From Flavobacteriales bacterium (lineage in GTDB: Bacteria > Bacteroidota > Bacteroidia > UBA10329): a stretch of 64,000 nt of DNA. Every line of letters starts with the position of its first letter. The first letter of the stretch is position 1. Of the stretch, positions 24,376 through 55,324 are shown piece by piece. The notes beneath the pieces were generated by a model. That model saw nothing but the letters and a program-made list of their open reading frames with translations. It was not told the DNA's origin and made no database searches. The position numbers and the translations under genes were made by a program. The stretch is from NCBI GenBank assembly GCA_021739625.1, contig JAIPBJ010000007.1:1-64000 (forward strand), given 5' to 3'.

Positions 24376-24577
24376 CCAGGGTCGGCAAGTGGTGCATGGG
24401 GTCGGAGGGCGAAGGTGTTTGTGGGGGGCTTATAGCACTCTTGGTTCTCAGGATATTTTGATGGCAGGGATAGTTTTGTATCGAAAATGACGAGCTTGGA
24501 GCAACCTTACCTCTTGTATCTGAAAGGCGCATGGATACTGGGCCGTGGAAATCATTTGTCATACACCTTGCGCTGGA

Positions 24578-24604
24578 GGGGGGGGTGGAAGACCCCCCCC
24601 CCCC
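24578..24604. repeat. facing homopolymer runs G8...C12
   Basis: GGGGGGGG (24578-24585), TGGAAGA, CCCCCCCCCCCC (24593-24604). Confidence 0.85.
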
Positions 24605-24605
24605 G

Positions 24606-24815
24606 GGTCAAAAACCGCCCGCTCGCGGTTTTTTATCGGGAGCGGGCGGTTTTTCAGTGCGCGTTCGCGGTTTTTTATCGCGTGCTCCCGATTTTTTACC
24701 GCTCGCTCGCGGTCAGGAACCGCGCAGGGGGGGTCCGGAATCGCGAGCGGGCGGTCAGGAACCGCGAGCGCCCGATCTTTTACCGCGCGCTCGCGGTCAG
24801 AAACCGCCCGGTTTC
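24606..24815. repeat. tandem array of ten degenerate 21-bp units
   Basis: Units e.g. GGTTTTTTATCGGGAGCGGGC, GGTTTTTTATCGCGTGCTCCC, GGTCAGGAACCGCGAGCGCCC, GATCTTTTACCGCGCGCTCGC; constant 21-bp register over all ten. Confidence 0.92.
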
Positions 24816-42958: not shown

Positions 42959-43134
42959 TTCCGGAACCACATATAGTTGGCCGCTACGGCCTGGAGTTCG
43001 ATGTTGCGATGTTCCGTCATGTCATCGGTATTAAGGATCGATGTCCGGTCTGTCACCTTCACAACGGGAACATGACCGGATTATGCGCGGCAAATATGAT
43101 GATCATAGAGGAAAGGCCGGTCACCGCCCATGCC

Positions 43135-43418
43135 CCATGGCTTCTATACAGGGGAAACAGACTTCCGCATATACTCCATGGTTTCCATGGAGAGGAAATG
43201 GACTTCTGCGCATGACCTATGGCTTCCATATAGGAGAAACAGACTTCCGCATAAACCCCATGGCTTCCATACAAGGGAAGCAGACTTCCGCATATACTCC
43301 AAGGATTCCATAAAGGGGAAACAGACTTCTGTATATGCCCCATGGTTTCCATACAGGGGAAACGGACTTCCGCAGATGCTCCATGGCTTTCATAGAGGGG
43401 AAACGGATGTCTGAACAG
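43135..43418. repeat. tandem array of seven 41-bp units
   Basis: Consensus CCATGGCTTCCATACAGGGGAAACAGACTTCCGCATATACT; units start at 43135, 43176, 43217, 43258, 43299, 43340, 43381 (last truncated). Confidence 0.93.
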
Positions 43419-53908: not shown

Positions 53909-54634
53909 TTGCAGGAAACCGTTCCATTTCAAGCTATCAAGCAAGTTGCGCCTCCCTTGCCGGGAGGCCGCAGGTTGGCCATGGCCGACATCCATGGCTG
54001 CGCACTCACCTTCCGTGCCCTGCTCGAAAAGGTGGCACTTACGAAGGAGGACCAGCTTTTCATTCTTGGCGATCTCATCAACCGTGGGCCGCGCAGCAGC
54101 GAAGTGGTCGATCACGTAATGCAGCTCTTGACAGAAGGATATGAGGTGCATGCCCTGCGCGGCAACCACGAGGAGATCCTGCTCCATATCGCCAAGACCG
54201 GGCCGGGCGAACTTCCCCTTCTGCTGCAGCCCCGCAATGCGATGGACATGCTCAATGGCAGGGGAAAAGTGAAAAAGCGTTTCCTGCGCTATTTCCGGAC
54301 ACTGCCCTACTGTTTTGAATTGGACGGGTTCTATCTGGTGCATGCAGGGTTCAATCTGAGGGCGGTCGATCCGCTCACCGACCTCCACGCCATGGTGTGG
54401 CAACGGCCTTTTGTGCTCAAGGACAGCTTGGTGAACGGCCGCAGGGTGGTGCATGGCCATCAGCCTCGCAGCATGGGCCGCATCCGCAAAATGGTGGAGG
54501 GCGGTCTGCCGGCCATCTGCATCGACAATGGCTGCACACACGGCTACATGGGCGAGGGATATGGGGCCTTGGTCTGCCTCGACCTCGACAGCGGAGAACT
54601 GTGGCGCAAGCGCAACATCGACCTGCGGAGGTGA
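53909..54634 (+). CDS. metallophosphoesterase (PPP-type phosphatase)
   Basis: MADIHGC; LGDLINRGPRS; LRGNHEE; HGHQP; TTG start at 53909 inferred. Confidence 0.85.
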   Translation: MQETVPFQAIKQVAPPLPGGRRLAMADIHGCALTFRALLEKVALTKEDQLFILGDLINRGPRSSEVVDHVMQLLTEGYEVHALRGNHEEILLHIAKTGPGELPLLLQPRNAMDMLNGRGKVKKRFLRYFRTLPYCFELDGFYLVHAGFNLRAVDPLTDLHAMVWQRPFVLKDSLVNGRRVVHGHQPRSMGRIRKMVEGGLPAICIDNGCTHGYMGEGYGALVCLDLDSGELWRKRNIDLRR

Positions 54635-54745
54635 TCCGTGCCATTCCCATTTCGGAATAGGACGAAACACCTATTGGGGACGGCCTCCGGAAAATCGGGA
54701 ATGCGATTCCTACAGGTGTTTCATGTATTGTACATTCTGACATAG

Positions 54746-54997
54746 GGCGAAACACCTGTTCGGGACGGCCTTACGAAAAGGGGGACACGCCCCAAATGCG
54801 TTCGGGTACCATCCCGAAAAAGGGGGACACGCCCCGAACGCGTTCGGAGGCCACCCCGAAAACTCGGAGTACGTCCCAAATGCGTTCGGATACCACTCCG
54901 AAAACTCGGAGTACGTCCCAAATGCGTTCGGAGGCCACCCCGGAAACTCGGAGTACGTCCCAAACGCGTTCGGATACCATCCCGAAAATCCGGGTCG
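54746..54997. repeat. tandem array of 42-bp units (five clear, one diverged)
   Basis: Unit CGTCCCAAATGCGTTCGGATACCACTCCGAAAACTCGGAGTA; starts 54746 (diverged), 54788, 54830, 54872, 54914, 54956. Confidence 0.93.
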
Positions 54998-55117
54998 CTG
55001 AAACGACATATTATGGTATCGACCCGAAGGCCTTTTCCCGCTTGGAAAACCATGACCTGTCATTTACGGTGAACCACGTAATGCATCTTTCGCGCCTTCC
55101 TGCAATTTTGACGGGCC

Positions 55118-55324
55118 ATGTCCTTTCGCCCTCCCGATCATACGCTGGCCGCTGCTGCACTCCTGTGCCTGTTCTGTTTTGCTTCGTGCAACAGAGAATG
55201 CTGCGATTGCACGGACAGCGAAATCTACAGGGGCACCTTCTGTGAGGACGAGCTTCCGGCCAATTTCAGCTCTTGGGAAGGATGCCGTACCGCTCTGAAG
55301 GAAGGCGGCTGCAAATGCGACTGA
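55118..55324 (+). CDS. small cysteine-rich lipoprotein
   Basis: MSFRPPDHTLAAAALLCLFCFASCNRECCDCTDSEIYRGTFCEDELPANFSSWEGCRTALKEGGCKCD. Confidence 0.65.
   Translation: MSFRPPDHTLAAAALLCLFCFASCNRECCDCTDSEIYRGTFCEDELPANFSSWEGCRTALKEGGCKCD

Follow-up and report, generated by a model that had tools for sequence, protein, structure and literature searches.

A 42-bp tandem array in a Flavobacteriales genome as a probable member of an intergenic minisatellite class paced at 21 bp

The tandem array considered here, which lies between two genes in the analysed stretch of 64,000 nucleotides from a Flavobacteriales bacterium (hereafter the window), probably belongs to a class of non-coding intergenic minisatellites, found throughout the genome, that act, if at all, as DNA. 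What the arrays of this class have in common is spacing, not structure: most have a period of 21, 42, 63, 84 or 105 bp, and this genome-wide preference for multiples of 21 bases points to a spacing rule, not to a peptide or an RNA hairpin. They are best read as fast-evolving intergenic minisatellite elements, similar in plan to the BrickBuilt element (see the final section) and having a 21-bp quantum. Bacterial minisatellites are usually regarded as idiosyncratic; one exact period across unrelated arrays, together with rewriting at a fixed length and register, makes the setting of repeat length testable, and could bring to light, in Bacteroidota, a protein that reads spacing or a copying process of fixed step.

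Layout and setting of the window array

The features that define the array and its surroundings are as follows.

53981..54634, + strand: calcineurin-like phosphoesterase gene (PF00149), upstream, forming the left border of the gap compared below
54745-54996: tandem array of the window family, comprising five clear 42-bp units and one diverged unit
54745..54786, + strand: sixth unit, diverged, forming the left edge of the array
54787..54996, + strand: five 42-bp units, each made of two 21-bp halves (unit alignment, TRF)
54991..55026, + strand: array-end element CGGGTCG...CGACCCG, common to the paralogous L002 array (about 87% over 52 bp)
55118..55324, + strand: small Cys-rich protein gene, downstream, forming the right border of the gap

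The five clear units proposed in the preliminary description are confirmed by unit starts at 54787, 54829, 54871, 54913 and 54955 (with the diverged unit starting at 54745) and by a TRF period of 42 (score 264), while the alternation of unit types that it described corresponds to an 84-bp higher-order pattern (TRF period 84, score 299) in which a GGAGGCCAC type alternates with a GGATACCAY type. No 7-bp sub-periodicity was found within the units. At the left edge, positions 54735-54771 partially repeat 54651-54686.

In a sister species (G006) the metallophosphoesterase gene and the small Cys-rich gene are also adjacent, but the gap between them is about 80 bp and holds no array, as against 484 bp with the array inside in the window genome; the same gene junction is therefore occupied by an array here and free of one in the sister species, whose sequence is too diverged at the junction for the exact array edges to be read. 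Three further loci of the window family occur in the genome (four in all), each consisting of intergenic, spacer-less, non-coding direct repeats, as in BrickBuilt. Some of the arrays occur at dispersed sites and keep a common edge or flank: the arrays of the window family at the site described here and at L002 have the end element in common but not the left flank, and the L029 and L049 arrays have a common 42-bp left edge. The window family has no sequence relatives in 58 other genomes, eight of the genus included. A phage origin was considered and discarded, since neither phages nor viral contigs gave a match.

Coding potential

The preliminary description had also pointed to open frames on all three minus-strand registers and to a 14-residue repeat peptide. 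The three minus-strand reading frames do exist where it placed them, but none of the six frames, plus strand included, is interrupted within the array, so that open frames are uninformative there. That the array encodes a repeat protein of this kind, as the long open frames might suggest, is already largely refuted and hardly credible: mismatches fall on the three codon phases in the proportions 11/9/9 (p = 0.87), and the synonymous fraction is 0.12-0.23 in every frame, none of which favours synonymous change, whereas strong phasing marks the coding arrays of this genome (codon-phase bias with p < 0.01 in 8 of 14). Neither test carries a coding signal, which leaves the peptide unsupported, and together with the six open frames they lead us to reject coding by the window array.

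For the class as a whole, a combined codon-phase test over 29 non-coding arrays gave p = 0.001, a mild heterogeneity that we put down, though without proof, to substitutions inherited in common. The number of open frames in the class, 82, is above the 58.9 expected from a column-permutation null and below the 123.7 expected from perfect copies, and so decides nothing as to coding.

Dyads, pairing and folding of the window family

Each 42-bp unit carries two dyads, 21 bp apart and centred at the same position in each 21-bp half.

54834..54847: dyad A, a perfect 14-bp palindrome CCGAACGCGTTCGG with no loop, in the unit at 54829
54895..54912: dyad B, ACTCCGA-AAAC-TCGGAGT, in the unit at 54871

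Dyad B is the perfect 7-bp hairpin of the preliminary description, found as claimed; dyad A is a second type, absent from its list. Dyad A is imperfect in the remaining window units and has CTGATGCATCAG in its place in paralogous arrays, while the L004 array holds both palindrome types. Pairing was analysed over 24 units, related to each other, from four arrays of the window family. For dyad A, 82.7% of cells are paired, against at most 48.2% in slid controls, and two-sided changes affect 12 cells as compared with 5.6 in shuffles (none of 500 reaching the observed figure), although these changes are linked and the units related; for dyads A and B jointly, 69.8% are paired and 19 cells have changes on both sides.

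The two-sided changes mostly amount to two linked block types, CTGATGCATCAG as against a C..AAYGCGTTCGG type, and since arm changes come in such blocks few of the compensatory events are independent. The earlier claim of compensatory change thus holds in that both arms change while pairing persists, but not as a series of many independent events. Given this linkage and the relatedness of the units, what the comparison establishes is the persistence of dyad symmetry rather than an RNA, and a DNA palindrome or hairpin-templated correction would account for that persistence equally well.

It could nevertheless be that the window array is transcribed, that each unit folds and that the changes are compensatory. 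An 84-nt stretch of the array folds strongly relative to dinucleotide shuffles (z = -5.8 on the + strand, -4.5 on the - strand), two-sided changes exceed those in shuffles, and a gene ends shortly upstream in the same direction in all four arrays of the family (one of these genes being doubtful). However, sister arrays of the family fold weakly (L003, z = -2.2), dyad A has no loop, and the blocky changes are explained as well at the level of DNA; no promoter-like site was found at the window array, where the lone terminator-like match equals shuffle expectation, and Rfam gave no credible match for it. An array of hairpin RNAs, which the preliminary description had favoured, is left unsupported by these results and by the folding of the class at large, and we consider it distinctly improbable. 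Measured against column-shuffled versions of themselves, the window array (z = -3.1) and the L017 and L048 arrays (z = -3.9 and -4.2) show a fold excess that is absent in most arrays of the class; the class mean is only -0.7 (p = 0.014), strong in some families alone, on which ground a class-wide hairpin was rejected. The dyads belong to the window family, and the class does without them.

A genome-wide class of arrays paced at 21 bp

The class was surveyed in 1.22 of the 3.69 Mb of a fragmented assembly (179 contigs), with genes called by a simple home-made method that misses some, for instance both neighbours of the window array. Autocorrelation of the intergenic sequence over lags 10-199 places 42, 21, 84, 126, 63, 168, 105, 147 and 189 at the top, so that the nine strongest lags comprise every multiple of 21 from 21 to 189; the mean match at multiples of 21 relative to other multiples of 3 gives z = 35 against a simple null. 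Exact multiples of 21 are the periods of 40 of the 75 non-coding arrays in the sample, from which one may extrapolate to about 120 such arrays in the whole genome. Their median length is 236 bp, with 18 of 29 between 202 and 257 bp, the lower limit being partly set by the detection threshold. Periods of 41, 83 and 22 bp also occur, so the quantum is not absolute. Two further arrays of the class, each of unrelated sequence, lie in the window itself.

43130..43404: second array, period 41 (near 2 x 21)
24589..24811 (24570-24811 when taken more widely): third array, period 21/42, G+C-rich

The first of these keeps a strict register over nearly seven copies and is the clearest exception to multiples of 21. 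Runs of G and of C stand directly before the second (about 24577-24606).

When 22 arrays were compared as circular profiles, related pairs were few and the units mostly unrelated, and a class-wide sequence motif was rejected accordingly. The orientation of arrays to their flanking genes (9/7/6/6 for tandem-minus, divergent, convergent and tandem-plus) resembles that of all gaps (120/69/39/81), and an orientation-linked terminator or promoter role was rejected on this ground and on the promoter and terminator results given above.

There are 15 non-coding arrays of period 14, apparently a class of their own, and the one seen (L044:11595-11652) is a low-complexity repeat of a GCAATTA-like 7-mer. 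At L055:2145-2782 two adjoining 42-bp arrays of different sequence, in a region called coding, may in fact be non-coding and belong to the class.

The period also appears in the sister species G004 and G008: the excess at multiples of 21 has z values, under a simple null, of 7.5 in G004 and 4.7 in G008, as against 2.3 in G005 and 0.1 in G006. It is weaker in a mixed class sample (z 2.7), reaches z 6.3 in a far sample (from few arrays), and is not seen in a 300-kb non-Bacteroidota control (z = -0.2). A single family of 21-bp arrays occupies several dispersed loci (L204, L252-L261) in the distant isolate Emticicia sp. CRIBPO, which shows that the period extends beyond the genus of the window genome; variation among these arrays is concentrated in few columns, mostly as transitions, and is common to several loci. 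The same observations bear on whether the arrays could be artefacts of assembling a fragmented metagenome bin. The number of contigs and the position of several arrays at contig ends might suggest this, but the units are diverged, many arrays lie within long contigs carrying genes of the same genus, and the period recurs in G004, G008 and the Emticicia isolate, which makes such an origin very improbable.

Turnover between fixed flanks and the source of the quantum

One family permits array content to be compared with its surroundings. Family A is a dispersed segment with an internal 21-bp array, found at three paralogous loci.

L057:8254-9486: family A segment
L043:11823-13034: family A segment
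L138:7204-7700: family A segment

The left flanks are identical at 169-171 of 180 bp (94-95%), sequence on both sides of the array is common to the copies, and conserved anchors enclose exactly 195 bp of array in every copy, without any indel; the arrays nevertheless agree at only 107, 127 or 130 of 189 positions (57-69%), each having its own consensus repeated across its units. Array content has thus changed far more than the flank, in a comparison that rests on this one family: the units were replaced rapidly and concertedly, with no change in length or in the 21-bp register. Units may replace one another through recombination or through gene conversion. In two copies the segment runs into a gene for a protein of 226-262 aa with no Pfam or NCBIfam family, and in the third into a different gene.

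As to where the quantum comes from, it may be a unit inherited in the lineage, a constraint of two helical turns, or the step of a fixed-step copying process. If a 21-bp unit descended in common through the lineage, odd periods would be indels amplified in higher-order units. The 42-bp unit of the window array may have begun as a dimer of an older 21-bp unit whose halves then diverged. A sequence-independent 21-bp ruler on the intergenic DNA of this lineage is a possibility that we hold only tentatively: many unrelated arrays would be built and rewritten in steps of two helical turns because spacing, but not sequence, is imposed by an enzyme that copies them or a protein that binds them.

A related proposal, which we regard as unlikely, is that the arrays are functional and helically phased, a DNA-binding, nucleoid or segregation protein reading the two-turn spacing of the units and leaving their sequence free to drift. 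It is attractive because 21 is the smallest whole-number multiple of 10.5 (the number of bp per helical turn) and because arrays of 31-32 or 52-53 bp were not seen among the 75 non-coding arrays; length and register are also kept while sequence changes in family A, and mismatches in the arrays outnumber indels by about 22 to 1, although gapless detection biases the count in this direction. However, the class has no common motif, no protein is known to bind the arrays, those with periods of 41 and 22 bp lose phase along their length, and within units neither AT nor purine nor AA/TT content gave a 10.5-bp sub-signal (harmonic 2 is 1.02x expectation for AA/TT and 1.09x for A+T). Intrinsically curved, phased DNA was rejected on the latter result.

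Comparison with described elements

No description of 21-bp-quantised arrays in Bacteroidota was found in the open-access literature. The nearest described element is BrickBuilt of Porphyromonas gingivalis, a minisatellite within a MITE, which forms one family with a 23-nt unit, terminal inverted repeats, a copy number that varies by strain and, on some copies, conserved edge sequences termed 'leader' and 'tail' (PMC4596501). BrickBuilt and the present arrays are alike in plan, both being dispersed, intergenic, spacer-less direct repeats of Bacteroidota that vary within and between copies, with conserved edges on some of these (here one end only of the window and L002 arrays, the left edge of L029 and L049, and both sides of family A). 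They are unlike in period, the window unit being 42 bp and the class quantum 21 bp, and in that many unrelated families are present here.

Dispersed non-coding tandem arrays within one genome are also known as the short and long tandemly repeated repetitive sequences (STRR, LTRR) of cyanobacteria, but those consist of heptamers or units of about 37 bp of defined sequence, whereas here one period runs across unrelated sequences. REP and BIME elements resemble the window-family arrays in being intergenic, dyad-bearing and sometimes tandem, but they have one motif per family, often in inverted pairs, in contrast to the head-to-tail units here, spaced at multiples of 21 bp and with no class-wide dyad. 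Plasmid iterons, finally, are direct repeats about two helical turns apart whose sequence differs between systems, much as in the present arrays; they lie at plasmid replication origins, where they bind a cognate Rep protein, whereas the arrays described here are many, chromosomal and intergenic.
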